A stretch of DNA of 42,829 bases from a virus, in IMG/VR virus record IMGVR_UViG_3300044733_005595, positions 1 to 42,829 of that record. One strand, written 5' to 3'. Shown piece by piece: positions 1,661 through 36,659 of the stretch. Position 1 is the stretch's first letter. Every line of letters starts with the position of its first letter. Made by a program: the position numbers and the translations under genes. The notes beneath the pieces are model-generated. The model was not told the DNA's origin, made no database searches, and saw only the letters and a list, made by a program, of their open reading frames with translations.

Positions 1661-1733
1661 GGGGAGTTAGCTCAGCTGGTAGAGCACCTGCTTTGCAAGC
1701 AGGCTGTCAGGAGTTCGAGCCTCCTACTCTCCA
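1661..1733 (+). tRNA. tRNA-Ala(TGC)
   Basis: Acceptor GGGGAGT/ACTCTCC with one G-T pair, anticodon loop TTTGCAA (TGC) on CCTGC/GCAGG, T-loop TTCGAGC, discriminator A. Confidence 0.93.
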
Positions 1734-1858: not shown

Positions 1859-1932
1859 GCCCCGATAGCTCAGTTGTATAGAGCAGCCGCCTTCTAAGCG
1901 GTCGGTCGTTGGTTAGAGTCCAACTCGGGGTG
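1859..1932 (+). tRNA. tRNA-Arg(TCT) with altered 19-56 pair
   Basis: Acceptor GCCCCGA/TCGGGGT with a terminal G-T pair, anticodon loop CTTCTAA (TCT) on GCCGC/GCGGT. The D-loop reads AGTTGTATA, so G19 is T; the T-loop reads TTAGAGT, so C56 is A. The two changes together restore a Watson-Crick tertiary pair. It would read AGA and AGG, codons common in the phage core genes. Confidence 0.88.
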
Positions 1933-1935
1933 CCA

Positions 1936-2010
1936 GGGAACGTAGCTCCAATTGCGTAGAGCACATGTTTGAAAAGCATGGTGTTGCGGGTTCGAGTCCC
2001 GCCGTTCCCA
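1936..2010 (+). tRNA. tRNA-Phe(GAA)
   Basis: Acceptor GGGAACG/CGTTCCC, discriminator A, anticodon loop TTGAAAA (GAA) on CATGT/GCATG. T-arm GCGGG-TTCGAGT-CCCGC. The D-loop (CAATTGCGTA) departs from the usual GG pattern. Confidence 0.9.
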
Positions 2011-2018
2011 CTTTGCTT

Positions 2019-2040
2019 ACCTATTTTATAATAGGTTTTT
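2019..2040 (+). terminator. Possible intrinsic terminator after tRNA-Phe
   Basis: ACCTATT (2019-2025) pairs with AATAGGT (2030-2036), followed by a run of T. The stem is AT-rich. An alternative longer helix pairs TGCTTACC (2014-2021) with GGTAAGCA (2043-2050), so the site could be an attenuator-like switch. Confidence 0.4.
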
Positions 2041-2071
2041 AGGGTAAGCATAAGAAAACCTGTTTGAAAAA

Positions 2072-2125
2072 GTGAAAAGCACGAAGTTCGCAGATTTTAA
2101 ATCTGCATTTGCATCTGCTTTTCAC
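2072..2125 (+). other. Two-tier hairpin between tRNA-Phe and tRNA-Ile
   Basis: A perfect 10-bp outer helix, GTGAAAAGCA (2072-2081) with TGCTTTTCAC (2116-2125), encloses a second hairpin GCAGAT (2090-2095) with ATCTGC (2101-2106). It lacks a T-loop, so it is not a tRNA. It could be a small stable RNA or a processing signal. Confidence 0.5.
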
Positions 2126-2129
2126 ACAA

Positions 2130-2202
2130 TGGAACGTAGCTCAGCTGGTAGAGCACACGACCGATAATCGTGAGGTCACGAGTTCAAACCTCGTCGTTCC
2201 AA
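2130..2202 (+). tRNA. tRNA-Ile(GAT)
   Basis: Acceptor TGGAACG/CGTTCCA, discriminator A, anticodon stem CACGA/TCGTG, loop CCGATAA (GAT). Position 33 is C in place of the nearly invariant U. The T-loop is TTCAAAC. Confidence 0.87.
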
Positions 2203-2219
2203 TCGCCTTCGGGCAACAT

Positions 2220-2290
2220 ACCGAAATAGTGTAGTGGTAACACGACAGTCTCCAAAACTGTTATCCAAGGTTCAAGTCCTTGTTTCGGTG
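2220..2290 (+). tRNA. tRNA-Trp(CCA)
   Basis: Acceptor ACCGAAA/TTTCGGT, discriminator G, anticodon loop CTCCAAA (CCA) on ACAGT/ACTGT, T-loop TTCAAGT. Confidence 0.93.
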
Positions 2291-2294
2291 CCAT

Positions 2295-2368
2295 GCTCTC
2301 TTAGCTCAGCGGACCAGAGCACCTGGCTACGGACCAGGGTGTCGGGAGTTCAAATCTCTCAGAGAGCG
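2295..2368 (+). tRNA. tRNA-Arg(ACG)
   Basis: Acceptor GCTCTCT/AGAGAGC, discriminator G, anticodon loop CTACGGA (ACG) on CCTGG/CCAGG. A wobble A would need deamination to inosine, presumably by host TadA. A GNRA-type hairpin TTGCC-GAAA-GGCAA follows in the spacer. Confidence 0.92.
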
Positions 2369-2386
2369 CTTGCCGAAAGGCAAAAT

Positions 2387-2476
2387 GGAAGATTGGCTGA
2401 GCGGCTTAAAGCAGCGGTTTGCTAAACCGCCGAGTCGGTACACCCGGCTCCGTTGGTTCAAATCCAACATCTTCCG
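2387..2476 (+). tRNA. tRNA-Ser(GCT)
   Basis: Acceptor GGAAGAT/ATCTTCC, discriminator G, anticodon loop TTGCTAA (GCT) on GCGGT/ACCGC, long class II variable arm. Confidence 0.93.
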
Positions 2477-2479
2477 CCA

Positions 2480-2551
2480 GGCAGTATAGCTTAACGGTAA
2501 AGCCCGTCATTCATAACGACGGAATTATGGGTTCAAATCCCATTACTGCCA
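2480..2551 (+). tRNA. tRNA-Met(CAT) or tRNA-Ile2(CAT)
   Basis: Acceptor GGCAGTA/TACTGCC, discriminator A, anticodon loop TTCATAA (CAT). The pair closing the loop is an A-C mismatch. It lacks the three G-C pairs of initiators. CAT could also be a lysidine-modified Ile tRNA; the sequence does not decide. Confidence 0.88.
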
Positions 2552-2552
2552 T

Positions 2553-2626
2553 GTGTAGGTAGCATAATTGGCTAATGCACTAGATTGTGATTCTAGTTTA
2601 TGCGGGTTCAAGTCCCGTCCTACACC
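2553..2626 (+). tRNA. tRNA-His(GTG)
   Basis: Acceptor GTGTAGG/CCTACAC, anticodon loop TTGTGAT (GTG) on CTAGA/TCTAG, discriminator C as expected for His. The base before the acceptor (2552) is T, so a genomic G-1 is not apparent. Confidence 0.92.
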
Positions 2627-2628
2627 CC

Positions 2629-2702
2629 GCCTCCTTAGCTCAGCTGGATAGAGTACCGGTTTTGTAAACCGTAGGTCGTCGGTTCGAGTCCGACAGGGGG
2701 CT
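2629..2702 (+). tRNA. tRNA-Thr(TGT)
   Basis: Acceptor GCCTCCT/AGGGGGC, discriminator T, anticodon loop TTTGTAA (TGT), T-arm TCGG-TTCGAGT-CCGA. It closes the first tRNA block. Confidence 0.92.
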
Positions 2703-2704
2703 TT

Positions 2705-2712
2705 GTTTAAAG
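2705..2712 (+). promoter_or_regulatory. GTTTAAAG phage promoter-like motif
   Basis: GTTTAAAG directly after tRNA-Thr and 42 bases before the ATG at 2755. It is one of about 13 like-oriented copies at gene starts in the window. Confidence 0.5.
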
Positions 2713-2754
2713 TAATAACTGGTAGTACGATTCGTTACGCATATCCGATCCCGT

Positions 2755-3207
2755 ATGGCTAACTTATTTGGCTCCTCAAACGTAAGACTCGCCGTTCTAG
2801 AGGAAAAACTAAACGTCTACGAAGATCTCTCCAGAGAGATGCTTTCCAAACTCGAGACGGCCGTAGACAAGATCTCAGAAGCCAATCAGAACGTGGCGAA
2901 GATCCTCGTAAGACACGAGGAACGCCTGGACCAGAGCATACAGTCAGACACAGCGATAATAAAGCTCCTAGATGAGCTAAAGTCCAATTACGCCCGGGAG
3001 ATAAAGTCCACCACTGACGAGATAAGTGACCTCGATACGAAGGTGGATAAGGAGGTGAAGGTACTGGGCTCTCGCATAGACGACTTATCGAGATTCAAGT
3101 GGTTGTTAGGTGGGGCTTTGCTAGTTGTGGGGGTGCTGGTGGGCCAGGTTAACGTCCTAGAGTCCGTGTTCCCCAACCTACCATCCGTCCACTCCGGCGG
3201 CAAATGA
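2755..3207 (+). CDS. Coiled-coil protein with C-terminal membrane anchor (XhlA-like?)
   Basis: The 150-residue product is mostly charged helix with heptad character (about residues 10-112), followed by one hydrophobic segment (about 115-131, WLLGGALLVVGVLVG) and a short polar tail. This is the layout of XhlA-type haemolysin/holin-accessory proteins, which are usually shorter. A lysis or membrane-tether role is therefore possible but not shown. The start at 2755 follows the GTTTAAAG motif. The stop overlaps the next start (ATGA), so the following small gene is translationally coupled. It interrupts the tRNA array together with two more small genes. Confidence 0.75.
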   Translation: MANLFGSSNVRLAVLEEKLNVYEDLSREMLSKLETAVDKISEANQNVAKILVRHEERLDQSIQSDTAIIKLLDELKSNYAREIKSTTDEISDLDTKVDKEVKVLGSRIDDLSRFKWLLGGALLVVGVLVGQVNVLESVFPNLPSVHSGGK

Positions 3208-3365
3208 GAGGGAGACGCGTAGGCTTTACCTACCACAAACTCTGGAGAACGGGTATAATACAAGGGGTATCGGCGGACTTTCCGGGGTACTACGCCGTAT
3301 TTATTGTCAGAACCACCGATGGATCATTTATTCCTGTCGATTCGCGAGACATTGCGTACCTATGA
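3204..3365 (+). CDS. Small basic protein, 53 residues
   Basis: ATG at 3204 overlaps the stop of the upstream membrane-protein gene by four bases. The frame is open for 53 codons and begins MRGRRVGFTYHKLW. The product is basic at its start and rich in aromatic and aliphatic residues (YYAVFIV near the middle), and it has no clear membrane helix. I do not recognise a family. The ATGA coupling argues for real translation. Confidence 0.6.
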   Translation: MRGRRVGFTYHKLWRTGIIQGVSADFPGYYAVFIVRTTDGSFIPVDSRDIAYL

Positions 3366-3453
3366 CCTTCAGATAGCCGGTACGCTAAGCCTCCTATTGA
3401 TTGTTGTCCCAACATATGGTATAATGTACATACACCAGAGACACGGTCGGTGA
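3319..3453 (+). CDS. Small membrane protein, 44 residues (holin-like size)
   Basis: The ORF overlaps the end of the previous small gene by 47 bases in another frame. The product has one strong hydrophobic stretch (about residues 19-38, with LSLLLIVV) and a basic C-terminus ending RHGR, the layout of a small single-span membrane protein. Together with the anchored coiled-coil protein upstream it could form a lysis module, but no enzyme is adjacent and this is inference. Its 3' end contains the promoter for the second tRNA group. Confidence 0.5.
   Translation: MDHLFLSIRETLRTYDLQIAGTLSLLLIVVPTYGIMYIHQRHGR
3397..3425 (+). promoter_or_regulatory. sigma70-like promoter before second tRNA group
   Basis: TTGATT (3397-3402), 17-base spacer, TATAAT (3420-3425) preceded by TG at 3417-3418 (extended -10). 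The expected start near 3432 is about 27 bases before tRNA-Ile(TAT). Confidence 0.7.
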
Positions 3454-3458
3454 GTTTT

Positions 3459-3530
3459 GGGACCGTCGCCTATGGGTTAAGGCCCTCTGCTTATAACGGA
3501 GTGAACGGAGTCCGAGTCTCCGCGGTCCTA
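3459..3530 (+). tRNA. tRNA-Ile(TAT)
   Basis: Acceptor GGGACCG/CGGTCCT with a terminal G-T pair, discriminator A, anticodon loop CTTATAA (TAT), which reads ATA. The T-loop is TCCGAGT, so position 55 is C in place of the usual U. Confidence 0.88.
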
Positions 3531-3533
3531 CTC

Positions 3534-3606
3534 GCTCGATTAGCTATCTGGTGAAAGCACCCGACTCATAATCGGATATAGGCGAGTTCGATCCTCGCAT
3601 CGAGCA
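3534..3606 (+). tRNA. tRNA-Met(CAT) or tRNA-Ile2(CAT), second copy
   Basis: Acceptor GCTCGAT/ATCGAGC, discriminator A, anticodon loop CTCATAA (CAT) on CCGA/TCGG, T-arm GCGAG-TTCGATC-CTCGC. It differs clearly from the CAT tRNA at 2480, so the two probably serve different codons. Confidence 0.88.
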
Positions 3607-3610
3607 CCTC

Positions 3611-3694
3611 GCGCAAGTGGCGGAATTGGTAGACGCCCGGGTTTTAGGTACCCGTGGGGGCAACCCCGTGGAGGTTCAAGTCCTCTCTCGCGCA
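3611..3694 (+). tRNA. tRNA-Leu(TAG)
   Basis: Class II tRNA with a Leu-type D-arm and a GGGG/CCCC variable arm. Anticodon loop TTTAGGT (TAG) on CGGGT/ACCCG. Acceptor GCGCAAG/CTCGCGC has one A-C mismatch. It reads CTA. Confidence 0.88.
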
Positions 3695-3701
3695 TAAAAC
3701 A

Positions 3702-3709
3702 GTTTAAAG
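3702..3709 (+). promoter_or_regulatory. GTTTAAAG phage promoter-like motif
   Basis: GTTTAAAG seven bases before the ATG at 3717, the same spacing as at 26195-26202. If it is a -10-like element, the transcript would start at or near the ATG. Confidence 0.45.
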
Positions 3710-3716
3710 CTTTCCG

Positions 3717-3832
3717 ATGGCTGAACAACTAACCAAGGAAGAGGATTTCTCGCAGTTACTAGAACTGGCTAACAGACTCAAGTTGCGCGAGCTCTTCGAG
3801 GAACCTAGTAGCTACGAGGACGAGCCCGAAGA

Positions 3833-3842
<10 letters not shown>
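3717..3842 (+). CDS. Small acidic protein, 41 residues, overlapping tRNA-Val
   Basis: An ATG seven bases after a GTTTAAAG motif opens 41 codons (MAEQLTKEEDF...) ending in a Glu/Asp-rich stretch and GG. The TAG stop is formed by bases 8-10 of tRNA-Val, so the last ten bases of the gene lie inside the tRNA. The product is predicted helical and very acidic. I recognise no family. The motif and coherent amphipathic composition support it. Confidence 0.55.
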
Positions 3843-3904
<62 letters not shown>

Positions 3905-4137: not shown

Positions 4138-4704
4138 ATGAACATCTTTTTCCTTTCCGCCAACACGAGGGAATGCGCAGCGGCTCACTGCGATAAGCAC
4201 GTCAACAAGATGATTATCGAGCATCTTCAGATGATGAGTGTTGCCGCGGTGCATTACGGCTACCTCCCAGCGAAGAAAAAGGACGGCAATTACTACTCCA
4301 CCAGGGCGTATAAGAACCACCCGTGCACGAAGTGGGTCAAGGAGTCCAAGGGTAATTTTTTGTGGTTGTTTGAAGTGACATACCACCTATGCGCTGAGTT
4401 TCGCAAAAGATTTGGCAAGGAGCACGCCGGACTCACAAGTCTTCTGTCTTTTTACTACGGCCCAGAAGGTAACACGATAAATGGCACTGTGTCAAAGCTG
4501 ATGGTCGAGAACGTCTATCCCCACCGAGGTCTTACTGACCCCGTGCAAGCGATGCCCTCCTTCTGCAGAGTCTACGAGGATCCCATCCAAGCCTACCGCA
4601 ATTACTACAACTGGACGAAGTGGAGATTTGCCAAGTGGGCAAAAGTCCCCGCCCCGGACTGGTGGGCACCTGGCTGCTGCCTGGAGGCCAGAGGTGAGTA
4701 CTGA
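4138..4704 (+). CDS. Conserved phage protein of unknown function (HCDKHV family)
   Basis: The 188-residue protein begins MNIFFLSAN and carries motifs I recall from a widespread family of phage proteins: AAHCDKHVNKMI (about residues 19-30), YKNHPCTKWVKES (about 58-70), QAMP (about 138-141) and AYRNYYNWTKWRFAKW (about 152-167). The conserved His, Cys, Asp and Lys could form an enzyme or metal site, but I know no proven activity. A strong ribosome site (GGGAGG, about eight bases before ATG) fixes the start. The downstream phosphoesterase gene overlaps it by 11 bases. Confidence 0.8.
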   Translation: MNIFFLSANTRECAAAHCDKHVNKMIIEHLQMMSVAAVHYGYLPAKKKDGNYYSTRAYKNHPCTKWVKESKGNFLWLFEVTYHLCAEFRKRFGKEHAGLTSLLSFYYGPEGNTINGTVSKLMVENVYPHRGLTDPVQAMPSFCRVYEDPIQAYRNYYNWTKWRFAKWAKVPAPDWWAPGCCLEARGEY

Positions 4705-5341
4705 GAGATACTGCTTGATCGGTGATCTGCATGGCCGTATTGACACCCTCGACCGCATCTTGCAGAAATCCCCGGACTACCACTACGTGTTCCTAGGCGA
4801 CGTCATCCACCACAAGTCATTCTTCCGGAGGTCTAAGCGTACGTCCCCTGTGAAGATGTTGCTGAAGGTCAAAAACCTCGTGGACCAGGGCAAGGCAACG
4901 CTGATAATCGGGAACAACGAGAACTACATCCTGAAAAACCTCGCGTTACCCAAGCCCCAGATCAAGCAGAGGGAGGTCAGGTACACCCTCGAGTTGGTGA
5001 AAAGCCTACCTCTAAAGACCCAGCTTGAGCTCCTCCACTGGCTCCTCGTAACGCCCCTCACCCTGGAATTCGAGGCGGAGGGCCAGATCTACCGCTGCGC
5101 TCACGCTTACTACGATCCTGATTACGACGACTCCACCAGGAACAGCGTACTCACGGGCATCGGCTACCCCTGGTTCAGAAACGACCCGCTCGAGGACCAC
5201 ATCCGCGATGACGCTAAGTACTTCTTCGGGCACTACGGGTACCCCTACTTCAGGAAGAATCTCCGCATCATAGACGCCACAAACTTCGAGGGGGTTGGGG
5301 TGTACTACACCGACCGGGACGAGTTTCTCATCTACTACTGA
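4694..5341 (+). CDS. Calcineurin-like metallophosphoesterase
   Basis: From a GTG start at 4694, chosen because GGAGG lies about six bases upstream and the gene then overlaps its neighbour by 11 bases, the product has 215 residues. It shows the phosphoesterase blocks GDLHG (D11, H13), GDVIHH (D36), GNNEN (73-77), CAHAYY (H137) and GHYG (179-182). The usual GNH(E/D) block reads GNNE, so the His there is missing. The family uses two metals to cleave phosphoesters (Ser/Thr phosphatases, Ap4A hydrolases, phage lambda phosphatase). The substrate is unknown. Confidence 0.82.
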   Translation: MSTERYCLIGDLHGRIDTLDRILQKSPDYHYVFLGDVIHHKSFFRRSKRTSPVKMLLKVKNLVDQGKATLIIGNNENYILKNLALPKPQIKQREVRYTLELVKSLPLKTQLELLHWLLVTPLTLEFEAEGQIYRCAHAYYDPDYDDSTRNSVLTGIGYPWFRNDPLEDHIRDDAKYFFGHYGYPYFRKNLRIIDATNFEGVGVYYTDRDEFLIYY

Positions 5342-5373
5342 GTCGGTGGACGGACGACTAGGTGGCTAAGGCC

Positions 5374-5403
5374 TTGACCCAAGGCCCGTTTCCATGATAA
5401 GAT
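5374..5403 (+). promoter_or_regulatory. Promoter candidate before DNA polymerase
   Basis: TTGACC (5374-5379), 18-base spacer, TAAGAT (5398-5403) with TG at 5395-5396. It overlaps an inverted repeat GGCCTT-GACCC-AAGGCC that could be an operator or a weak terminator of the upstream gene. Confidence 0.5.
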
Positions 5404-5425
5404 AGCAGTATCTACTCGGTGGTAT

Positions 5426-8113
5426 ATGTCCAAGCTCAATTCCCTCGGTTACGCCGTCCTCTCCGACTCGATGAACTCCAGGGTGTTTGGCGAAGGCATC
5501 AAAGCTAAGCGCCCCGAGACCAGAAAGATCTCCGAAGTGAAGGAGGAGATGGAGCGGTTCGGTGTGGACTTTCCTGTCAAGAACCCCTCTAGTTTCTTCA
5601 TCGACGACTTCAAACTGCCCGAGTTGCGCGACTCCACCATCCACGGGCATTTCGACCGTATCTCCAAGGAGGTGACTTCGGACCGCGTGAGATTGATGAA
5701 GGACTTCGCCTACACCGACATCCCCGATTACCCGGACCGGACAAAGTTCTTCCTGGCGAGTGGATGGGTTAAGTACCCGTTCGATGGTCCCGCCCGGCGT
5801 GTCTCCGGAATCGAAGAGAGGATCGGCGTATTCGACTGCGAGACCTTCGTCAAAGGCAGCGACTTCTCCCACCCAATCCTCGCCACCGCCGTTACCGATA
5901 AAGCCTACTACGTCTGGATGCACGAAAGCTTTGTGGATTCCAGAGTGCCGTACGAGCCGAAGCTTGTGCCGCTGGGCCGCAAGGACGGAGTGTTCATCGC
6001 TCACAACGTAGCCTACGATCGCCCTCGGACGCAGGAATCCTACGTTCTCGGAAAGACCAACTCGTGGTTTGACACGATGTCCGCCCACATCAACGTTTCC
6101 GGCCTCGCCTCGGGCCAACGATGGTGGTATGTTCAGAAGCAGGCAAAGAAGGTGATGTACAAAGCCGATCCGGTATGGGCGGATAAGGGCTCGATGAATA
6201 ACCTCGTCGACTGCTACAACTTCCACTGCCGGCCAGCCATCCCTCTTGAGCACGAGGACAAGGAGATCAGGAATGTGTTTGTGGACTCCTCATCCATGGA
6301 CGACTTTGTGCCCCTGCGCGACGAGCTTATCGAGTACGCCCTGAAGGACGTAAAGATCACCTTCGAGTTGTACTCGATTGTCGTGCTCAAGTACCTCCAG
6401 AATAACCCGTCCCCTACCACCCTGGCCGCTCACTTCGGCATCGCCTCCGCCAAACTTCCCGTTGTCTCCGACTGGGACGAGTGGTTCTCCAACTGCGAGA
6501 AGCAGTGGAGGGGGTCCATCGACCGGCAGGAGGAGATCCTGAGTAAGATGGCCGTGGAGGTCTACGAGGCCTGGAATGAGGGCGAACTGACCGACGAGGA
6601 TATACAGGGGGATCCGTGGCTCTCTCAACTCGACTGGGGCGCCAACTTCAAACTCACCAAGGCTGGAAAACCCAGCTCGAAGTGGTACGGAGTGCCCAAG
6701 TGGGTGAGGGGCGTATCTTCCAAGGACCTGGTGGATGGCAAACCCCACATCGAGGGCATCTCCACCAAAAACCGCATCTCCCACCTCCTGCTCCGCCTGA
6801 AGTGGGATAATCAGCCGATCGTGTTCCTCAAGGACAAGGGTTGGTGTTTCAAAGACCCGGACAGTGGTAATTACGAGCGGCTCCCGCACACGGACGGTGA
6901 GGGGGTGAATGTTGGTGGTGTTCTGACGAAGGACTACGTTGAGGACTTCGAGTCGGGAATGCTAAGTTCCGACCTCGCGCAGGCTCGCGAGCTCATCAAG
7001 CTTGCGATCAATGTTGCCTACTGGACGAGTGTCCGCTCGAGGGTGAGGGAGCAGAACGTGGAGGTGGTGAAGACCCCTAAGGGTGAGGAGTTCTCCCTCA
7101 TCATCCCCGCCACCGTCCCGCATAACACCTCTACCAATCGAGCCGGTGAGAATCTGTGGCTTACCGTCCCCGACCCCAAGTACGACAAGATCGGTAGCGA
7201 GATCAAGACCCGCGTTCAGGCGCCTAAGGGCTACGTGTTTGTGGAATCGGACTTTGACGCTCAGGAAGCGGTCGTTGCCTCGATCTTCGCCGACTCCTTC
7301 CACAAGATCGCTGGGAGTACTCAGTTCTCCCACTCGATTCTTGCGGGGTCGAAAGACGACGGTACCGACATGCACTCGATGACCGCCAAGGCCATCAGCA
7401 TTACCAGGGCCATTGCCAAAGGTTGTAATTACGGTATGTTGTACGGGTGCGGGGCGAAGACTCTGGCCAATACCATCCGCAAGGGCAATAAGAGCATCCC
7501 GATGAAGGAGGCCATGGAGATGGGACGAAAGCTCATCAAGATCAAGAAGGGTAAGAAAGCCTCCAGGCTCTCCCAGACCCTCATCGGCGGATCCGACTCC
7601 TACGCCTACAACGAGATGGCTCGGATCGCTAACATGCCCTGCCCTATCAACCCACTCAGCGGCACCAAGATGTCCACGGCTTTCCGCCCCTCGAGTGTCG
7701 GAACCGACTTCTGGACGATGCGTAACAACTGGTGCATCCAGTCCACCGGGAGCGCGATGCTCCACGCCTTCATGACAGCGATGGAGTGGCTCATCGACAA
7801 ATACGAGCTGGAGGCGGAGTTCTGCATGTCGGTCCACGACAGCATCCTCTACCTCTGCCCGGAAGACCAGGCCGAGAAAGTCGCTACGCTCTTCCAGGTG
7901 GCTCATGCTTGGTGTTGGGCCTGGATGCGGTATAATTACGACATCTACGAGCTTCCGGTGGCCAATGCCTGGCTCTCCTCTATCGAGATTGACAGCGTCT
8001 TCAGAAAGTCCGCCGACTCGAGTACCAAGACGGTCTCGCAGCAGAAGGACGAGGAGGACGGTCGGTCTGTCACCATCCAGGACCTAGTTCCGGTATTCAA
8101 CTCGATGTTTTAG
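5426..8113 (+). CDS. DNA polymerase, family A, mitochondrial Pol gamma-like, with 3'-5' exonuclease
   Basis: The 895-residue protein is a replicative family A polymerase. Exonuclease motifs: D137-C-E139, H193-N...D197 and Y304...D308. Polymerase motif A is ESDFDAQE (D609), motif B R661...K665...N668-Y-G and motif C H804-D805. Beyond these it runs collinear with animal Pol gamma as I recall it: DTMSAHINVSGLASGQR after Exo II, LPHTDGEGVNVGG and KDYVEDFESG before the palm, RVQAPKGYVFVESDFDAQE, GTDMHS, NNWCIQSTG and the C-terminal ELPVANAWLSSIEIDSVFRK. Pol gamma is absent from bacteria, and full-length phage homologues were reported from Acaryochloris cyanophages. The product likely replicates the phage genome. 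Confidence 0.92.
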   Translation: MSKLNSLGYAVLSDSMNSRVFGEGIKAKRPETRKISEVKEEMERFGVDFPVKNPSSFFIDDFKLPELRDSTIHGHFDRISKEVTSDRVRLMKDFAYTDIPDYPDRTKFFLASGWVKYPFDGPARRVSGIEERIGVFDCETFVKGSDFSHPILATAVTDKAYYVWMHESFVDSRVPYEPKLVPLGRKDGVFIAHNVAYDRPRTQESYVLGKTNSWFDTMSAHINVSGLASGQRWWYVQKQAKKVMYKADPVWADKGSMNNLVDCYNFHCRPAIPLEHEDKEIRNVFVDSSSMDDFVPLRDELIEYALKDVKITFELYSIVVLKYLQNNPSPTTLAAHFGIASAKLPVVSDWDEWFSNCEKQWRGSIDRQEEILSKMAVEVYEAWNEGELTDEDIQGDPWLSQLDWGANFKLTKAGKPSSKWYGVPKWVRGVSSKDLVDGKPHIEGISTKNRISHLLLRLKWDNQPIVFLKDKGWCFKDPDSGNYERLPHTDGEGVNVGGVLTKDYVEDFESGMLSSDLAQARELIKLAINVAYWTSVRSRVREQNVEVVKTPKGEEFSLIIPATVPHNTSTNRAGENLWLTVPDPKYDKIGSEIKTRVQAPKGYVFVESDFDAQEAVVASIFADSFHKIAGSTQFSHSILAGSKDDGTDMHSMTAKAISITRAIAKGCNYGMLYGCGAKTLANTIRKGNKSIPMKEAMEMGRKLIKIKKGKKASRLSQTLIGGSDSYAYNEMARIANMPCPINPLSGTKMSTAFRPSSVGTDFWTMRNNWCIQSTGSAMLHAFMTAMEWLIDKYELEAEFCMSVHDSILYLCPEDQAEKVATLFQVAHAWCWAWMRYNYDIYELPVANAWLSSIEIDSVFRKSADSSTKTVSQQKDEEDGRSVTIQDLVPVFNSMF

Positions 8114-12125: not shown

Positions 12126-12722
12126 ATGGGAAAAAGCGTCAAGACTCTGATGAACGCGTATCTGACCTCGTTCAGACTGGCCCTCAAGCGAGATCCCACC
12201 TCGGACACCTTCGTGCTGAAGAAGAGCATATCGTACTTGAAAAAAGCCATAGTGGCGATCGGGGGCATCGAGCCCGGGATCCTAGAGACAATGCTCGAGG
12301 AGCTGGACGCCTTCCTCTCGTCCGAACACCACCTGGCGCTACAGTTAGAGATGCTGTTTGTGGATAGCGAGCAGAGTAGCATCTATAACTCCAATATCAG
12401 AGCACTCTCGGAGTTTAGGAAGGAACTCGCGGAGTTGGTAGGCACAAAAAAAGGAGGCCCGGAGGCCTCCAAGGAGTCGGAGCCAGATGGCTCAAGCGAC
12501 GGGGTTCTGGAAGATGAAACCAGCGCCACACTTTCCGTTCTCACCCATGCCGACGAGCTCGAAGCTACGCTCGACAAGGATGTCGCCGGTGAACACTCTG
12601 CGCTCGATGTTGAAGCGCTCAGGAGTGGAGATGGGATAACCACTCAGAGTGTAGGTGTAGGCGAAGGCGGGGTTGCCGTAGTTGGCGTCCAGGGCGGGCA
12701 TGAAGCCGTCGGTGGAGGATGA
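12126..12722 (+). CDS. Plus-strand hypothetical gene antisense to the capsid 3' end
   Basis: The first ~106 residues (MGKSVKTLMNAYLTSFRLALK...FRKELAELVG) form a helical, plausible protein with AGGA about ten bases before ATG. The frame then continues for ~90 low-complexity residues (Gly, Glu, Ser and Val rich) read antisense through the capsid terminator and the last 230 bases of the capsid gene. The N-terminal part is probably real. The tail may be tolerated read-through. No family recognised. It is an isolated plus-strand gene within a minus-strand operon. Confidence 0.5.
   Translation: MGKSVKTLMNAYLTSFRLALKRDPTSDTFVLKKSISYLKKAIVAIGGIEPGILETMLEELDAFLSSEHHLALQLEMLFVDSEQSSIYNSNIRALSEFRKELAELVGTKKGGPEASKESEPDGSSDGVLEDETSATLSVLTHADELEATLDKDVAGEHSALDVEALRSGDGITTQSVGVGEGGVAVVGVQGGHEAVGGG
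12446..12470 (-). terminator. Intrinsic terminator after major capsid gene
   Basis: On the minus strand a 7-bp stem (plus coordinates GGAGGCC 12453-12459 with GGCCTCC 12464-12470), tetraloop, then seven T (12446-12452). It is a canonical rho-independent terminator 22 bases beyond the capsid stop. Confidence 0.85.
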
Positions 12723-13475
12723 AGGATGGTAGAAGAGGATCGCGGTGTTGTTGTAGATGTTCTCCAGCGCACCGGTGGCCTGATTCAGCTTCAGTCTGCG
12801 AGCCACGCGAAGCTCGTCCAGACCAAAGATCTGGGCCAGAGTCTTCTCGTCGACAAGCACACCGCGCTGCATGAAGTCACGGATTCTCTTGTTACGCTTC
12901 AGGGCGTTGAAGGCGTCAGGTGAAAGCACCAGTTTGTTCGGATATACACCGATCTGGCTACGCACCTGCTCCTTGGCGTCGTCCATCAGCACTTCCACGT
13001 CAGCGGTAGGGCTGTTGAATTGGTCGGCACCGCCGTTGTAGGTGGCGAGGTTCAGCACGTTGTTGGTCTCGTACTGAGCGGCGTCGGTCACCTGGTCAGC
13101 GACTTGAACTTCCCAGGACTGCATCAGACGGTTGGCGGCGTCCTTAGCAGCGAACTGGCGAAGATCGATCTGAGCGGCGCCGTTCTTGGCCTCAGCAGCG
13201 ACCTCTTCGGCGATCTCCCAGCTGATCGCTTCCTGACGGAGGGCGAACGAGCGAGTTCCGAATTGGTTCTGGATCTTCTGGATGTTGGTTCCAGGAGCGC
13301 GGAGGAACGACTGAGCCGCAAAAGCCTCCTTGCCGAATACCAGGGTACGTCCAGCGCGAGTATTCATAGATACCGCGGGAGCGAAGAAGGTAGCCACACC
13401 CTCAGCGTTCTTGTACCCTTGAGCTAGTTGCGTAAGAATGGGGTCAATTACGCGTACCTGATCAAGATTCATCAT
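12492..13475 (-). CDS. Major capsid protein (HK97 fold)
   Basis: The 327-residue product shows typical capsid features: an N-terminal arm (DPILTQLAQGYKN), FAPAVSMNTRAGRTLVFGKEAF, then ISWEIAEEVAAEA, a spine-helix region (DAANRLMQSWEVQVADQV), the P-domain stretch VYPNKLVLSPDAFNALKRN and the C-terminal ERRVFTGDILVERSFELVG. It matches capsids of Mu-like and large phages that lack an N-terminal delta domain, with scaffolding supplied by the protease gene. Its neighbours (decoration, protease/scaffold) confirm it. The start has tandem ATGs with AGGAGA about 11 bases upstream, and it ends at a strong terminator. Confidence 0.9.
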   Translation of the reverse strand: MMNLDQVRVIDPILTQLAQGYKNAEGVATFFAPAVSMNTRAGRTLVFGKEAFAAQSFLRAPGTNIQKIQNQFGTRSFALRQEAISWEIAEEVAAEAKNGAAQIDLRQFAAKDAANRLMQSWEVQVADQVTDAAQYETNNVLNLATYNGGADQFNSPTADVEVLMDDAKEQVRSQIGVYPNKLVLSPDAFNALKRNKRIRDFMQRGVLVDEKTLAQIFGLDELRVARRLKLNQATGALENIYNNTAILFYHPSSSTDGFMPALDANYGNPAFAYTYTLSGYPISTPERFNIERRVFTGDILVERSFELVGMGENGKCGAGFIFQNPVA

Positions 13476-14024: not shown

Positions 14025-15446
14025 TTAAGAGTTAGATAGAACAGCCTTCAGAGCGATGGTGTACTCGACACCCTTCGCTTCGGAGTACTCCAGAGCTTGC
14101 GCGTGAAGGTCCGCTGTGGCGGGATCGTAGACGTACCCATCAGCCGAAGGCGTGACTTGCTTCTTGGCTGGTGGAGCCGAAGCTGGGGTCGCGAATTCCT
14201 CGAAGCTGACCATGGAGGGTAGGTTCTCCAGGACACCTTTGAAGAAGTCAAATTGAGAGGCTTTGCCTGTCTCAGAGAAGTTCACCGAGTTCTTGTTATT
14301 GAGGGTCTCCATGAACCGGACGAGATCCGTCTTAGAGACGATCTGCTGGGTCAGTTTACCACCATCGTATAGAGTCTCGCAGAAATCAGAGATTTCCTTC
14401 TCTCTCATGAGTTTTTTCTGTCTGGCAAGTTCCTCTTCCAATTCGGCTACCCGGGCCTGAAGGTCATTCTGTCCCCGAACTCCCATAGCGGTTTCGCTAT
14501 GATCCAGAGTTCCTGTAGCCTCTTTTGAAACGGTCTCTTCCGACATGTCTCCCTTCATCATCTCCTTTTTCTTCTTCTCTTCCTCATCCTCCTCGTAGTC
14601 CTTGCAGCCTTCACCGTGCTCGGAAACTTCCTCGTCTTCCTCGGTAGCTTCCTCCTCGGAGTAAACCTGCTCTCCCTTGGGTTCGTCAGCGCCTTTCACG
14701 TCCTCGGAGGGCGGTTGGCCAGCGTCGGAGGGCTTCTCACCTTCCTTCACAGCTTCTCCCATGTCCTTGCTGTCCTCTTCCTCCTCGTCGTCCTTCTCAC
14801 TCTCACCACCCTTCTTAGCTTCCATAGCCTTCTTGAGTCCCTCTGGCATCTCGCCATAAGACATTCCCTCACCCTCCATCATGGAGGCAGCATCAGTTTT
14901 AAGAGCCAGGGCCTTAATCAGCTCGTCTATCTCGTAATTAGACGCGAGTTGGGCGATCTTCTGATCATCTCCTTGCATATCTCCCGAGATATCCTCGGTT
15001 TCCATGCCGGAACCCGTGTCGCCATCAGTAGAAGGCCCGGCGGATCCGTCATCGGTCCCGCCATCGGTAGCATCATCACCGGAATCCATGCCGGCTTCCG
15101 CGTCGGGTGCCTCACCATCCTGAGAAGGCATGTCACCGTCAGCGGTGGGGTCGGCATCAGCACCTTCGTCGGCGCCATCTTCCAGCCCTAGGCTGTCGGA
15201 TGCTCCGTCGCCCGGATCCATAGCCGAGGCGTCGTCCTCGGAGTCGGACTCCATACCGTAGTCCATGTCGTACTCCGCAGGAGCACCGGTCTCGGAAATC
15301 CTATTGCCGCTATCATCGTACACATTGGCTTTGGGCTTATCACCACCACCAATGTTGATATTCACGGTCATTCCCCCACCCTCGTTGTGCTCGACAACCG
15401 AAGCAACCGAAGTGGGAGTTTCTGGTTTGGTTTTCTTCCTAGCCAT
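14025..15446 (-). CDS. Nested scaffold protein (internal start)
   Basis: An in-frame ATG at codon 179 of the protease gene (MARKKTKPETP...) would make the scaffold alone, 473 residues. It is preceded by TTAGGA and, 23 bases upstream, by a minus-strand GTTTAAAG copy at the same spacing seen before independent genes. Separately made scaffold is known in Mu and lambda. The internal promoter is inference. Confidence 0.5.
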   Translation of the reverse strand: MARKKTKPETPTSVASVVEHNEGGGMTVNINIGGGDKPKANVYDDSGNRISETGAPAEYDMDYGMESDSEDDASAMDPGDGASDSLGLEDGADEGADADPTADGDMPSQDGEAPDAEAGMDSGDDATDGGTDDGSAGPSTDGDTGSGMETEDISGDMQGDDQKIAQLASNYEIDELIKALALKTDAASMMEGEGMSYGEMPEGLKKAMEAKKGGESEKDDEEEEDSKDMGEAVKEGEKPSDAGQPPSEDVKGADEPKGEQVYSEEEATEEDEEVSEHGEGCKDYEEDEEEKKKKEMMKGDMSEETVSKEATGTLDHSETAMGVRGQNDLQARVAELEEELARQKKLMREKEISDFCETLYDGGKLTQQIVSKTDLVRFMETLNNKNSVNFSETGKASQFDFFKGVLENLPSMVSFEEFATPASAPPAKKQVTPSADGYVYDPATADLHAQALEYSEAKGVEYTIALKAVLSNS

Positions 15447-15980
15447 AGTTTGATTTTTTCCTAAGTGTTCTTTAAACGAAATAGAAGACTCCCCTTCGGA
15501 GGGGGTAATTGTGATCGTTTCTTGTTCGGATAACTCCGAAAAAGCAGTTAGTCCTTTGACTGCCGGAATAGAAACTAAACCAAGATGGCGTAGGGAGAGT
15601 TTCCCAGGTGTAGGATTCGTTTCAGCTTCAGGCAGGTAAAATGAGCTACTTACTTTCTTAAACACCCCATCTTTGATGAGTTGTTCGGCTTTAGGGGTAA
15701 GCTCCACCTTACCCCAAAGTTCTTGACCTTTCTTCCAGATCTTACGTACCCAACCTAGAGCCGGAGTATCGTCCTGCTGGTCGTGACCGATTATCAGAGG
15801 AGCCTCGTGAGTATCGGGGTTGTAAGACCCCACCACCTGATCGAGGTCACTCTCCGTAAAGACTAACTTCTGACCGGTGGAGGAGATCTGGGGACCTGCT
15901 CTGAACATCTCTATGAATACAACCTTTTTAGGCTGCTGGGAAGAGAGCGGTTCTTTGTGGTTGAGTACGTGCTCTTTCAT
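14025..15980 (-). CDS. Prohead protease fused to scaffold (Mu gpI-like)
   Basis: Residues ~25-155 (MFRAGPQISSTGQKLVFTES, YNPDTHEAPLIIGHDQQD, LGWVRKIW, FKKVSSSFYLP, LSLRHLGLVSIPAVKGL) match the Mu gpI protease family that processes proheads. The C-terminal two thirds is a very acidic low-complexity region (Asp/Glu/Gly/Ser, about 230-480) and a coiled coil (about 515-550, AELEEELARQKKLMREKE), as expected of a scaffold. The fusion and a nested scaffold start parallel Mu I/Z and lambda C/Nu3. Both acidic length and position next to decoration and capsid genes fit. Confidence 0.85.
   Translation of the reverse strand: MKEHVLNHKEPLSSQQPKKVVFIEMFRAGPQISSTGQKLVFTESDLDQVVGSYNPDTHEAPLIIGHDQQDDTPALGWVRKIWKKGQELWGKVELTPKAEQLIKDGVFKKVSSSFYLPEAETNPTPGKLSLRHLGLVSIPAVKGLTAFSELSEQETITITPSEGESSISFKEHLGKNQTMARKKTKPETPTSVASVVEHNEGGGMTVNINIGGGDKPKANVYDDSGNRISETGAPAEYDMDYGMESDSEDDASAMDPGDGASDSLGLEDGADEGADADPTADGDMPSQDGEAPDAEAGMDSGDDATDGGTDDGSAGPSTDGDTGSGMETEDISGDMQGDDQKIAQLASNYEIDELIKALALKTDAASMMEGEGMSYGEMPEGLKKAMEAKKGGESEKDDEEEEDSKDMGEAVKEGEKPSDAGQPPSEDVKGADEPKGEQVYSEEEATEEDEEVSEHGEGCKDYEEDEEEKKKKEMMKGDMSEETVSKEATGTLDHSETAMGVRGQNDLQARVAELEEELARQKKLMREKEISDFCETLYDGGKLTQQIVSKTDLVRFMETLNNKNSVNFSETGKASQFDFFKGVLENLPSMVSFEEFATPASAPPAKKQVTPSADGYVYDPATADLHAQALEYSEAKGVEYTIALKAVLSNS
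15470..15477 (-). promoter_or_regulatory. GTTTAAAG motif inside the protease gene
   Basis: Minus-strand GTTTAAAG 23 bases before the nested scaffold ATG. This is the only intragenic copy I noticed next to a start codon well inside a longer gene. Confidence 0.4.
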
Positions 15981-15983: not shown

Positions 15984-18900
15984 TCAGAATACGTTTGTGG
16001 AGTTAAGCAGAGAACTGAATCTTGCCTCGTTTCTGGAGAAGCTATCGCTCAGTTGAGCAACTTGGCCAGCCGGAGTTCTGACGATGGTCAGAAGCAGACG
16101 CTCGAGTGTTGGACTTGTAGCCACGTAAACGTCCAATCTCACCGTGCCATTTTCCAGGTCGGTGGTGTTGTTATTCGCTGACGAGCACACGACCAGGTAG
16201 GCTTGCTCGGGTCTCGATCCGAATAGCGCTCCCTGACGGAAGAACTGACCCAGAATCTGAGAGGCGATAGACTTCACTCTCGCGTACACGGTACCCGCTG
16301 AGTCGATCTGCTCGAAGAGGATGTCGTCGAAGCTACGACCCATAACATCGATGAGGACGTTAAGGATGGCACGTGTGTTGATGAATCTGAAGAGCGGGTT
16401 GGGGGAGAGGGTTCTGGCACCCCAGGCCACGATTCCACGGTTGGGAAGCGAGCGGATAGGGTTGAGTCCCAGGGCGTAGGTCACTTCCTGTTGCTGGGCG
16501 GAGATGTCGAACTTGAGTCCGATGGCTCCTCTCAGTGGGTAGCGAGCGCCGGCGGGAGGCTGCTGGAAGCCCTCGTTGGTGTATCTCGAGCAGGCAATGC
16601 CCACCATGTAGCTGGAAGGGGCAATGTAGCGATCGTCGAGATTCTTTACGTAGGGAGCGTAGAAGGCCGCGTGGCCGAAAGGCACTCCCACGGCGGCTTT
16701 GATGCCGTAGAGTTCGTCCTGGGCCTCGTTGAGAGACATCTCGTCCGCACCGCAGTCGATGTAGGCGATATGCTGGGTGCCCACGATACCCTCAGTGGTG
16801 CCAAGTTTACCCTCGGCGGCTTTGGTAAGCGTCTGGGTGATCTTGAGGCGCTCCTGGCGAGCTTCGTTCTTGCTGGCAAAATCACCCGCCCCTACCTCGT
16901 AGGAAAGCACGGTGTAAGCCTCGGGAGCGAATAGGAAGCCAGGTGAGAGGACTCTAGATCCCATGCCCTGCTCGATGGCGTACATGAAGTCGTTGGACTT
17001 AGCCGTCACCGTGAGCTTGTAGGACTCGTAGCCAGCGTTCTGGTCGATGGAGTTGAGTTTGACAACATTACCATCCAGCACACCGAATCTATTACGGCCA
17101 GGGTAGATCGGGGAGGATACCCCGTTCTTGGAGGTAATCTTCACTCTCAGAACGTAGTCGTGAGAGTAGAAACCGTTGGGTATGGACTTGTCCAGGGTGG
17201 CTGGGGTACCGGCCGGAATGCCTGTCCCGGTAGGAGTTACGGTAGCCTCGTCGTCCGAAGTCACCGAACCAACCACGAATCTGATGCCATTAGCCACGAT
17301 GGTGTCGCCGATCGCCAACTCTGTGAGGAACTCGGTTCCTACACCTGTGACCACTCCACCCACGCTGATACCCAAGAGGCCGGAGAGAGCGATATCCTCC
17401 AGCTCTGGACGGATGTAAGGGGTTCCAGCACCCGAGACCAGTTTGGTGCTTAGTTGGTGGCCGTTATTGGGGGCGTACTCGTCGGTCGATCCGATCTGCG
17501 AGCCGGAGTTTACAGCTTCGACGGAGTAGTAGCCATCTAGCTCCTTCTCCTGCAGGATGCTGTTGATCTCGGCGACCAGGTTGGTCGTCAGTTCGTCAGG
17601 GGTAGCTCCGTTCACGATGATGGCACGGTTCTCACCGGCAACCTCAACGTAGAAGACCTGGACGGAATCAGGAAGGTATCCGGAGCGAGTTGTAACTCCT
17701 CCAGAGGTAACCACCATCCCCAAGGGGACTTCTGTGCCCGCAACCTCGACGGTGTTCTGGAACAGCGAGAATGCTAGGGAATCGTACTTCCAGTAGTTGG
17801 CGTCAGCGTCTGCCCACCGCACGTACGAAGCGGAAGCGGAGGTGAGGTCCTTCGACACGCCCACAATCTTGCCCGAGGGGATCGCGGATTCGGAGGCGTA
17901 GATGTTCTGATTGATCAGGAAGTTCTTGACGATGTCCGACTGATCGGCCGAAACGTCATAGGCGAGCTTTCTCACCGTGACGTTGGCGCCCGGGGTGCCA
18001 GAGAAGTTGATAACCGCTCCACCCAAGGAGCCGGAGAGCTGGATATCGTCGCCTGACTTATTGACCACGAAGTATACCGTGCCAAAACCGATGGAAGCCA
18101 GACCTCCGTCGTCGGTACCCTCCAGTACCACACGGTCATCGTCGGCAAGTCCTGCCGAGGAGTTTAGCGTGATGGTATTGGCCGTGGGATTGAAATTGGC
18201 CGGGGTGGCGGTGTACTCCGTAGAACTCTGCAGCACGAAAGCACTCAGAGCGCTACCTGATAGGTGGAGGATGGGTTCACCGGTGGTGATGTCTCTCGCC
18301 ACGCAGCGGAAATCCAGCTCTTTCACCGATGTGTAGAACTTGACCACGAACTGGTTGTTGAGGTCGAGCGGAGTAGCGTAGCTTGTATCGTTGAACTGGT
18401 AAGCCACGAATCTCTCGACTTCAGGTAGATTTCTGGTGTCCCTTGAGAAGATTCTGAACTTACCGGCAATGGCTTCGGTCGCGTTCTGCTCGATGCGATA
18501 GAAGTCGGAGAAATTATCACCGTTGTCAGCGAGGAACGAGTAGATGTCCCTTGAATTATCTACTTGGTCGAGGGCGGTGGTGGTGATAACGCGGATCTCG
18601 TCGCCATCAGCATCATTCACTCCGATAGGAGTTCCGAAGTAACGACCATTGATCTTGAGGGCGAAGGCATTGTACCCAGCACCCGCCGCGGAGGCTCCCA
18701 AATCAACCACTGTCTCCGGAGTCGGGGAAACGCGGGTGAAGTAGAGGATGCCATTTACCCCGACGTTGTCGAAGAAGGCTTTAACGGCGTCGTAGGAAGC
18801 CAGGGCACCCTTATTAGAGGTCGGTGGTTTGCCCCCGATCTTCTCGACAAAGTCGTCCACCGAGCCTATCTGTGTGGGTTTGTAAGGCTCGAGTACGGAG

Positions 18901-19070
18901 TACTTGTTGAGAGCATTGCCCTCGTAGTAGTCCTCGGTGGGCGTGCTGCCGAAAAGGTAGCCTACCGCGTGAGTAGCGATGGGTTGGGGTAGGCCACCTG
19001 TCGAGGCTTGTGTTACGAACACGCCGGGCCGATTCAATGTCGCAGCATTGATTCTAATTGGATTGGCCAT
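15984..19070 (-). CDS. Contractile tail sheath protein
   Basis: The 1028-residue product begins NRPGVFVTQASTGG, the sheath N-terminus that embraces its neighbour, followed by GSVDDFVEKIGG...YDAVKAFFDNVGVNGILYFTRV, typical of sheaths. The C-terminal domain has YMVGIACSRYTNEGFQQPPAGARYPLRGAIGLKF, LNPIRSLPNRGIVAWGARTLS...FRFINTRAILNVLIDVMGRSFDDILFEQ and a final strand region, the conserved sheath handshake. At twice the length of minimal sheaths it carries several inserted beta domains (about 200-780), probably surface decorations. It shows the phage is a myovirus. A GTTTAAGG motif lies 34 bases upstream. Confidence 0.92.
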   Translation of the reverse strand: MANPIRINAATLNRPGVFVTQASTGGLPQPIATHAVGYLFGSTPTEDYYEGNALNKYSVLEPYKPTQIGSVDDFVEKIGGKPPTSNKGALASYDAVKAFFDNVGVNGILYFTRVSPTPETVVDLGASAAGAGYNAFALKINGRYFGTPIGVNDADGDEIRVITTTALDQVDNSRDIYSFLADNGDNFSDFYRIEQNATEAIAGKFRIFSRDTRNLPEVERFVAYQFNDTSYATPLDLNNQFVVKFYTSVKELDFRCVARDITTGEPILHLSGSALSAFVLQSSTEYTATPANFNPTANTITLNSSAGLADDDRVVLEGTDDGGLASIGFGTVYFVVNKSGDDIQLSGSLGGAVINFSGTPGANVTVRKLAYDVSADQSDIVKNFLINQNIYASESAIPSGKIVGVSKDLTSASASYVRWADADANYWKYDSLAFSLFQNTVEVAGTEVPLGMVVTSGGVTTRSGYLPDSVQVFYVEVAGENRAIIVNGATPDELTTNLVAEINSILQEKELDGYYSVEAVNSGSQIGSTDEYAPNNGHQLSTKLVSGAGTPYIRPELEDIALSGLLGISVGGVVTGVGTEFLTELAIGDTIVANGIRFVVGSVTSDDEATVTPTGTGIPAGTPATLDKSIPNGFYSHDYVLRVKITSKNGVSSPIYPGRNRFGVLDGNVVKLNSIDQNAGYESYKLTVTAKSNDFMYAIEQGMGSRVLSPGFLFAPEAYTVLSYEVGAGDFASKNEARQERLKITQTLTKAAEGKLGTTEGIVGTQHIAYIDCGADEMSLNEAQDELYGIKAAVGVPFGHAAFYAPYVKNLDDRYIAPSSYMVGIACSRYTNEGFQQPPAGARYPLRGAIGLKFDISAQQQEVTYALGLNPIRSLPNRGIVAWGARTLSPNPLFRFINTRAILNVLIDVMGRSFDDILFEQIDSAGTVYARVKSIASQILGQFFRQGALFGSRPEQAYLVVCSSANNNTTDLENGTVRLDVYVATSPTLERLLLTIVRTPAGQVAQLSDSFSRNEARFSSLLNSTNVF

Positions 19071-34718: not shown

Positions 34719-36659
34719 ATGACTGAGAATCGTCAGGCGGCGAAGCAGATTAAAACTGGCTACTACGACCGATACTTCAGTCTAGGCATAGCTCAGGGCA
34801 GCTTAGCGGGTTACAAGGCCGATCCTTACGCTTTCACAGCGACCCCCTACCTCAACTCGGGTACTATCCTCCCGCGTCGCGACGACATCCTCATCGAGGA
34901 GGGTGGTGGTGGCCCGCGAGCGATCGAGAAGTACATGCGACTGTTCAATGACAGTCACATCATCGCCGCCTGGGAAAAGATCATCGGGGAGATCGTCCAG
35001 CGCAAGTGGGAGATCGATCCCGCCAGCCCCTCCGATCGCGACGAGGAGGTCGCTGAGTTCGTCCGTCAGGTGCTGAAGCGCATGGGCACGAATACTCGGC
35101 AGGCCTACGGCAAGGAGATGCTGGTAACGTCCAACTCCGCGTTCGATACGTTTATCCGCGGGATGTGCGAGTCGATGATCCTCGGCATCTCGGTAGGAGA
35201 GATCTGCTGGATGAGGCAGGGCAATTACATCGTCCCGTCGGAGATCAAGATACGCGACCCACGCAGGTTCCAGTTTGTCCTGAACGAGGACGGGACTATG
35301 TCCCCGCGTCTGATGACGGTGGATTCGCCGGTGGAGGGCATACCATTGCCCCTGCGTTCGATGGTCATACACAGGCACTGGTCCTATAGCAACTTCATGG
35401 ACCCGTATGGCACAGGTCTGGGGCGTCAGCTCTACAGCCTTGTTGAGTTCAGACGTACGCTGATGTCGTTCTGGCTCCAGTACGCGGACAAGCACACCAC
35501 CCCCACAGCGGTGGGCAAATTCTCCCTGGGCACTCCCGACGAGGAGGTGGCATCGCTATTCACGGCGCTTCAGCGCCTGGGTCAGGAGACCGCGATCGTG
35601 ATCCCTGACGAGATGGAGGTGGATTGGTTGGAGAGTCAGGGCCGCTCGGAGGTGTACGAGAAGCTCATCGAGTACGTCGATCAGCAGATATCCTTTGTCC
35701 TCAACGGCGAGAATACGGTGGGGCAGGAGACCGGTAATGTGGGTTCGTACGCCCGGGACCAGGTATCCGACTCGTTGAGGATGCGTAAAGCAAAAACCTT
35801 CTCAGAGGAATTAGATGAGACAATTAACGCCACGCTTATACGTTGGATTGTTGAGCTTAACTATCCGGGTGTCTCCGTTCCTAGACTTCGTAGAAACTTT
35901 GATGATCTAGAGCAGCGTGAGGATCCCGTCAAGATCGTCCAGATGCTGACGCAGCTTCAGGCCGTGGGTTACGAGGTCAAGGACCTTGACTGGATGAGGG
36001 ACAAGCTGGAGATCCCGTCCCTGGGCAAAGTCGACCAGGCCGGGATGATGGGCATGGGTGGAGCCCCACCGGCCGCGGGTGCAGCGCCCATGTCCGAACC
36101 GAAGACCCCGGAACAGATGAACGATTCGGCGAACGGAGCCATGGGGGCGTTCGGAGCCGACCAGTCGGACATGCTCAGCCTCTTCGACTTCTCCGAGGGA
36201 GACTACGATGAGGACGGGGATACGTCCGACAAGACCAAGAAGGATAAGATCGCCAAGCTCATAGCGTCCAAGTTCGACGGAGCTCTGGACGATGTCGGGT
36301 TCCAGCGCATCGTCTCGGATAGTGGGGATTCGGAGGCTTCTGCGTCCAGGATCCACATCGACGAGTACACCTCGCCTGGCGAGATCGCCCACGGTTCCAG
36401 AAGGCTCGTCGAGGAAGTCAAGAAGGTGCCGTACCTGCGACCCGACCAGTCCATAGCGCTCAGCGCTCTGAGCATGGAACTGTACAGCGTGGAGAACCAG
36501 ATCAGAGTGGATGATATAGACGTACTCGAGACCACAAAACTTCTCGACCTCTACCAGAGAATCTACAGACTCAACCGTTCTGTGGTGCATAAGGAGTGCG
36601 TGGTGATCGACTGCAGGAAGGCGGGTTACTGGAAGTACTTTGCGCCGTACCTGATGTGA
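34719..36659 (+). CDS. Portal protein (Mu gp29-like, DUF935)
   Basis: The 646-residue product follows the DUF935 portal plan: AIEKYMRLFNDSHIIAAWEKIIGEIVQRKWEI near the start, MCESMILGISVGEICWM (wing), IKIRDPRRFQFV, then SMVIHRHWSYSNFMDPYGTGLGRQLYSLVEFRR, QYADKHTTPTAVGKF and the stem/crown region LQRLGQETAIVIPDEMEVDWLESQGRS...QISFVLNGENTVGQETGNVGSYARDQV. Portals form the 12-mer DNA gate at one capsid vertex. Residues after ~430 add a Met/Gly/Ala-rich, then Asp/Glu-rich linker and a ~110-residue helical domain ending WKYFAPYLM that is not part of the usual family. Confidence 0.88.
   Translation: MTENRQAAKQIKTGYYDRYFSLGIAQGSLAGYKADPYAFTATPYLNSGTILPRRDDILIEEGGGGPRAIEKYMRLFNDSHIIAAWEKIIGEIVQRKWEIDPASPSDRDEEVAEFVRQVLKRMGTNTRQAYGKEMLVTSNSAFDTFIRGMCESMILGISVGEICWMRQGNYIVPSEIKIRDPRRFQFVLNEDGTMSPRLMTVDSPVEGIPLPLRSMVIHRHWSYSNFMDPYGTGLGRQLYSLVEFRRTLMSFWLQYADKHTTPTAVGKFSLGTPDEEVASLFTALQRLGQETAIVIPDEMEVDWLESQGRSEVYEKLIEYVDQQISFVLNGENTVGQETGNVGSYARDQVSDSLRMRKAKTFSEELDETINATLIRWIVELNYPGVSVPRLRRNFDDLEQREDPVKIVQMLTQLQAVGYEVKDLDWMRDKLEIPSLGKVDQAGMMGMGGAPPAAGAAPMSEPKTPEQMNDSANGAMGAFGADQSDMLSLFDFSEGDYDEDGDTSDKTKKDKIAKLIASKFDGALDDVGFQRIVSDSGDSEASASRIHIDEYTSPGEIAHGSRRLVEEVKKVPYLRPDQSIALSALSMELYSVENQIRVDDIDVLETTKLLDLYQRIYRLNRSVVHKECVVIDCRKAGYWKYFAPYLM

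Follow-up and report, generated by a model that had tools for sequence, protein, structure and literature searches.

The polymerase gene and its surroundings

The stretch analysed here, referred to as the window, comprises the 42,829 nucleotides of IMG/VR virus record IMGVR_UViG_3300044733_005595. At positions 5426..8113 of its plus strand it carries an open reading frame (ORF), confirmed with its ATG start, that encodes a Pol gamma-type family A DNA polymerase of 895 amino acids. The assignment draws on the PHROGs family phrog_22619, which matches the protein at 1177 bits, on matches in the PDB, on phylogeny and on Foldseek comparison of the predicted fold. Two antisense ORFs inside the gene (minus strand, 5366-6253 and 6962-7906) had no supporting evidence and were dismissed; they appear to be a side effect of the G+C-rich coding frame.

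A pyrimidine-dimer glycosylase-like gene (4138..4704, plus strand; PF03013) lies upstream of the polymerase. The virion genes include, on the minus strand, those for the major capsid protein (12492..13475; phrog_1005, E=2e-69), a Mu-like head protease (14025..15980; PF10123, E=6e-10; phrog_976) and a contractile tail sheath of 1028 amino acids (15984..19070; phrog_17610, E=8e-298), and on the plus strand that for a Mu-type portal protein (34719..36659; PF06074, E=3e-76). An earlier sequence-only reading of this DNA had assigned the polymerase to a phage with a contractile tail and a Mu-like head, and the sheath, portal and protease genes bear this out. Since it sits among phage sheath, portal and capsid genes, the polymerase is distinct from mitochondrial POLG/MIP1 proper, which is eukaryote-encoded, imported and copies mtDNA.

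The same organization is found in phage S-TIM5, where a PF03013 gene (the neighbour AEZ65652 belongs to the same Pfam family) also precedes the polymerase, followed by minus-strand structural genes including capsid and sheath and later by the portal gene. The window shares both this gene order and the homologous capsid, sheath and portal genes of the S-TIM5 type. At the DNA level its capsid gene shares 79% identity with the S-TIM5 gene, and its polymerase shows 71-72% identity, over 100% of the length, to the enzymes of S-TIM5, S-TIM54, S-TIM61 and S-TIM66. Judging from these genes, the window is a fragment of the genome of an uncultured marine S-TIM5 relative, a predicted Aurunvirus-like Synechococcus myovirus. 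Near-identical contigs, with 99-100% polymerase identity, exist in IMG/VR.

An ORF at 4628-5341 (plus strand), located between the genes for the glycosylase-like protein and the polymerase, shows similarity to a NinI-like phosphatase (phrog_246, E=1e-4), and S-TIM54 carries a gene labelled PhoS at the matching place. Positions 84-3904 hold an array of 19 tRNA genes, parts of which share 86-94% DNA identity with other Synechococcus phages. This identity suggests exchange between different cyanophage lineages and, together with the affiliation of the relatives, makes Synechococcus the probable host.

Domains and active-site motifs

The N-terminal part of the enzyme contains a 3'-5' exonuclease domain of the mitochondrial polymerase type (PF18136, residues 61-321, 5606..6388, plus strand; E=2.9e-50), recognized at 171 bits against a cut-off of 26.7 and present in 43/43 members of alignment A4. 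The family A palm and fingers (PF00476, DNA_pol_A) occupy residues 587-824 (7184..7897, plus strand; E=7.7e-15). When the polymerase was compared with the PDB by phmmer, the best match was yeast Mip1 (9c51, E=2e-121), which aligned collinearly from residue 3 to residue 892; mouse and human POLG came next with E values from 2.1e-95, whereas true Pol I enzymes gave E = 7e-4 or worse. Ordinary Pol I-type and T7-type phage proteins matched in the region of the palm motifs only, at E ~1e-6 or weaker. By these comparisons, the Pol gamma resemblance of the predicted protein is far beyond chance.

All exonuclease and polymerase active-site residues are intact, and their invariance was judged over 43 full-length relatives (17 S-TIM5-type and 26 S-CBWM1-type). 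On the plus strand, exonuclease motif I reads VFDCET (5828..5845; D137 and E139 invariant in 43/43), motif II HNVAYDR (6002..6022; D198 invariant) and motif III YALKDV (6335..6352; Y304 and D308 invariant). They are followed by polymerase motif A, ESDFDAQE, from residue 607 (7244..7267; D609 and E614 invariant), by motif B, TRAIAKGCNYGMLYG (7403..7447; R661, K665, Y669 and Y673, the first two and Y673 being invariant), and by motif C, SVHDS, from residue 802 (7829..7843; H804 and D805 invariant). Similarity to Pol gamma extends to blocks outside the catalytic motifs, as had been noticed from the sequence, with QAPKGY at residue 598 directly ahead of motif A and ELPVANAWLSSIEID at residue 842, C-terminal to motif C. 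Residue 669, the motif B position governing dideoxynucleotide discrimination in family A enzymes, is tyrosine in 17/17 S-TIM5-type and phenylalanine in 26/26 S-CBWM1-type enzymes. The tyrosine would predict a ddNTP sensitivity like that of T7 and POLG, and the phenylalanine resistance. A Y/F split at this position has also been noted for the isolates (PMC7156551).

Predicted fold

An AlphaFold2 model of the window polymerase, built from a 43-row alignment, reached a pLDDT of 85.6 and a pTM of 0.84. In Foldseek, Mip1 and POLG chains took all of the first 36 places among the PDB matches to this model (query TM 0.75-0.88), whereas T7 polymerase aligned with a TM of about 0.40. The structural comparison proposed in the sequence-only reading thus came out in favour of a POLG/Mip1 fold, with a shorter spacer: exonuclease motif III and polymerase motif A are 301 residues apart in the window enzyme, whereas the distance is 346 in yeast and 487 in mouse. 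The long spacer with a POLG2-binding part that characterizes animal POLG is missing from it. Because this stretch is so short, the enzyme may act without a POLG2-like partner. Yeast is not known to have POLG2 either.

Phylogenetic position

Maximum likelihood trees were rooted on an outgroup comprising the T7 enzyme and E. coli Pol I along with further family A polymerases from phages. The Pol gamma clade separated from this outgroup with full support (100/100), and the window polymerase fell inside it, within an S-TIM5 clade that was itself supported at 100/100; the phylogenetic test suggested beforehand, placement relative to T7 and Pol I, therefore agreed with the initial identification of a full-length Pol gamma-like polymerase.

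In the trees, the phage line nearest to mitochondria is that of Mic1, not that of S-TIM5. The mitochondrial pair (yeast and mouse, sequences taken from PDB alignments) grouped with Mic1 at 100/100 and was joined next by A-HIS1/2 (96/90), the S-TIM5 and S-CBWM1 types falling outside this group. The association of Mic1 with mitochondria recurred when the outgroup was omitted and when the exonuclease and polymerase parts were analysed apart. Consistently, Mic1 scores 585/573 summed BLAST bits to yeast/mouse, against 430/389 for the window enzyme. Monophyly of the phage enzymes to the exclusion of mitochondria was weakly rejected (AU test, p=0.045) in a data set whose mitochondrial sequences were only two in number and both from opisthokonts, and whose outgroup branches were long. 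A pattern search based on Mic1 plus yeast returned near-copies of Mic1 only, and no phage between Mic1 and mitochondria. The best explanation of these relationships is that the window polymerase and mitochondrial Pol gamma share a common phage ancestor. The abstract of the S-TIM5 paper reportedly presented its mitochondrial-like polymerase as evidence of phage origin.

Related polymerases in phages and mitochondria

According to PMC7156551, which itself adds Mic1, Pol gamma was found in the siphophages A-HIS1/A-HIS2 in 2011 and also in two cyanomyophages, S-TIM5 (Sabehi et al. 2012) and S-CBWM1 (Xu et al. 2018). The sequence-only reading had named Acaryochloris phages as the known cases and expected a myovirus copy to widen the distribution; both points are contradicted by S-TIM5 and S-CBWM1. 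The window supplies another example of a gene known in such cyanobacterial viruses since 2012.

The window enzyme resembles those of the Aurunviruses S-TIM5, S-TIM54, S-TIM61 and S-TIM66 in being a full-length Pol gamma of near-equal length, in gene order, in virion genes and in the motif B tyrosine, but the level of protein identity between them indicates a different species or genus. The dense tRNA array upstream also differs from S-TIM5, where metabolic genes lie among scattered tRNAs. With the myovirus S-CBWM1 (Aokuangvirus) it shares the domain order, the PF18136 exonuclease and a DUF5906 primase elsewhere in the genome, but the two polymerases are 34% identical and differ in the motif B residue. 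The siphophages A-HIS1/A-HIS2 (Acaryochloris) and Mic1 (Microcystis, from freshwater) have enzymes of the same family, 30-32% identical, accompanied in A-HIS1 and Mic1 by the same primase and flap endonuclease, but the virions differ; in Mic1, whose protein is the closest to the mitochondrial enzymes, the gene is moreover split in motif A by a group I intron. Mip1, which is collinear with the window enzyme over residues 3-892, and POLG superimpose on that enzyme with a TM of up to 0.88 and share its active-site residues, but they are ~24-29% identical in structural alignments and have a longer spacer, and the phage has neither a mitochondrion nor POLG2. The T7 gene 5 polymerase is likewise a family A replicase with a 3'-5' exonuclease, but it belongs to a separate clade, and nothing corresponding to its partners, the gp4 helicase-primase and T7 RNA polymerase, was found in the Pol gamma phages.

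IMG/VR contains many relatives, with 65 loci retrieved by an S-TIM5-centred query and 201 confirmed stretches by an S-CBWM1-centred one; a viral scan based on A-HIS found nothing. A bacterial or plasmid source of the polymerase was also considered and set aside: two scans of bacterial contigs, which depend on short peptide patterns, gave no Pol gamma relative, and a plasmid search gave a single weak match of the Pol I type.

Replication partners

The protein annotated as DNA primase in S-TIM5 and A-HIS1 belongs to PF19263/DUF5906 (phrog_25243). Among 18 records of Pol gamma phages, 15 contain this family, one of them being a 118.5-kb contig with a polymerase 99% identical to that of the window; the family was not found in the window itself, which is a fragment. 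The S-TIM5 primase and the S-TIM5 flap endonuclease each match the identical 9 of 50,697 phage records, all of them Pol gamma phages. The polymerase further co-occurs with ribonucleotide reductase and ThyA genes. A tree of the primase gave no firm branching sequence for the four phage lines. In all four isolate lineages (S-TIM5, S-CBWM1, Mic1 and A-HIS1), the DUF5906 primase-like protein and the flap endonuclease accompany Pol gamma.

Three other replication proteins were sought in the same 18 records, some of which, from IMG/VR, are incomplete so that absences there are weak. DnaB_C, the helicase family of Twinkle and gp4, was found in 0/18, with controls positive in 4/4 (T7, P-SSP7, RIO-1 and all-k141_1748665). 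T7-type single-subunit RNA polymerase was likewise found in 0/18, with positive controls in T7 and P-SSP7, and the same count was obtained for family B polymerase (DNA_pol_B). No second polymerase was seen among the annotated S-TIM5 genes examined. A polymerase, flap endonuclease, helicase and primase common to Mic1, A-HIS1/2 and S-CBWM1 had already been described (PMC7156551). New here are the exclusivity of the partner set and the lack of partners of the Twinkle and T7 RNA polymerase types.

Function and origin of the window polymerase

The window gene very likely encodes a Pol gamma-type replicase. A divergent phage polymerase of the T7 or Pol I type, POLG-like in its catalytic core alone, could account for the weak palm-region matches of PF00476 and of Pol I-type NCBIfam models. 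It would have to be reconciled with summed BLAST scores of 33 bits for T7 and 37 bits for E. coli Pol I, figures dwarfed by those for yeast Mip1 and mouse POLG, with the specific exonuclease domain PF18136, with the contrast in TM scores and with the full support for the branch that separates the Pol gamma clade from the outgroup of T7 and Pol I enzymes; BLAST bits, tree and fold together rule this identity out for all practical purposes. It is also very unlikely that the enzyme is an accessory or repair polymerase in a virus copied mainly by host replicases. Cyanobacterial hosts do have replicases of their own and accessory family A enzymes do occur in phages, but Pol gamma is the sole DNA polymerase type found in these genomes, its exonuclease is intact and the genes for primase, flap endonuclease and nucleotide supply noted above accompany it. 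A main-replicase role is probable because no family B polymerase was found in the related genomes. The window enzyme would act as the proofreading, replicative polymerase of a Synechococcus myovirus of the S-TIM5 type (Aurunvirus-like) whose genome may be copied by this Pol gamma-type enzyme with a phage-encoded DUF5906 primase-like protein, with which it would physically cooperate, and a flap endonuclease.

The direction of transfer between phages and eukaryotes bears on the common phage ancestor proposed above. Capture of the phage genes from eukaryotic mitochondrial genes appears improbable, the closeness of the mitochondrial enzymes to Mic1 leaving room for a single capture by the Mic1 line alone. 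Against such a capture, the phage diversity is much deeper, with four lineages of which the S-TIM5 and S-CBWM1 types branch outside the group formed by mitochondria, Mic1 and A-HIS; a phage clade without the mitochondrial sequences is weakly rejected; and the pattern-based scans yielded no bacterial relative.

Implications for the mitochondrial replisome

Phage Pol gamma is paired with a DUF5906 primase-like protein, whereas mitochondrial Pol gamma works with Twinkle and POLRMT. The lack of a Twinkle/gp4 helicase and of a T7-type RNA polymerase in Pol gamma phages implies that mitochondrial Pol gamma on the one hand and Twinkle/POLRMT on the other may stem from different phages. We see an even chance that Pol gamma, DUF5906 and the flap endonuclease form a separate coherent module across cyanobacterial myo- and siphoviruses that does not coincide with Twinkle/gp4-type helicases or T7-type RNA polymerases, mitochondrial Pol gamma having its source in a relative of the Mic1 line, and Twinkle/POLRMT theirs in different phages that are T7-like. 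If true, this would contradict a single T7-like source of the mitochondrial replisome. By itself the window adds little, since cyanomyoviruses with Pol gamma were already known from S-TIM5 and S-CBWM1. More weight attaches to the wider survey, with its abundance of relatives in IMG/VR, its placement of mitochondrial Pol gamma beside one phage line and its different partners, and whether one phage or several stand behind the mitochondrial replisome is now a testable question.

Introns in related polymerase genes

In Mic1 (L004:4825-5122), a 298-bp group I intron lies between S and Q of DVDS|QELW (RF00028, 45.5 bits, below the Rfam cut-off of 50). An IMG/VR contig has a group I intron at nearly the same motif A codon (L095:9795-10016; RF00028, 37.7 bits, below the same cut-off), which seems, by eye, to contain an ORF resembling a GIY-YIG homing endonuclease. 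In another contig (L098:990-4094) the Pol gamma frame is broken between motifs A and B, where an intron, a frameshift or an assembly error is possible. A further group I intron, scoring 72 bits, is located on the minus strand at L095:17700-18013.
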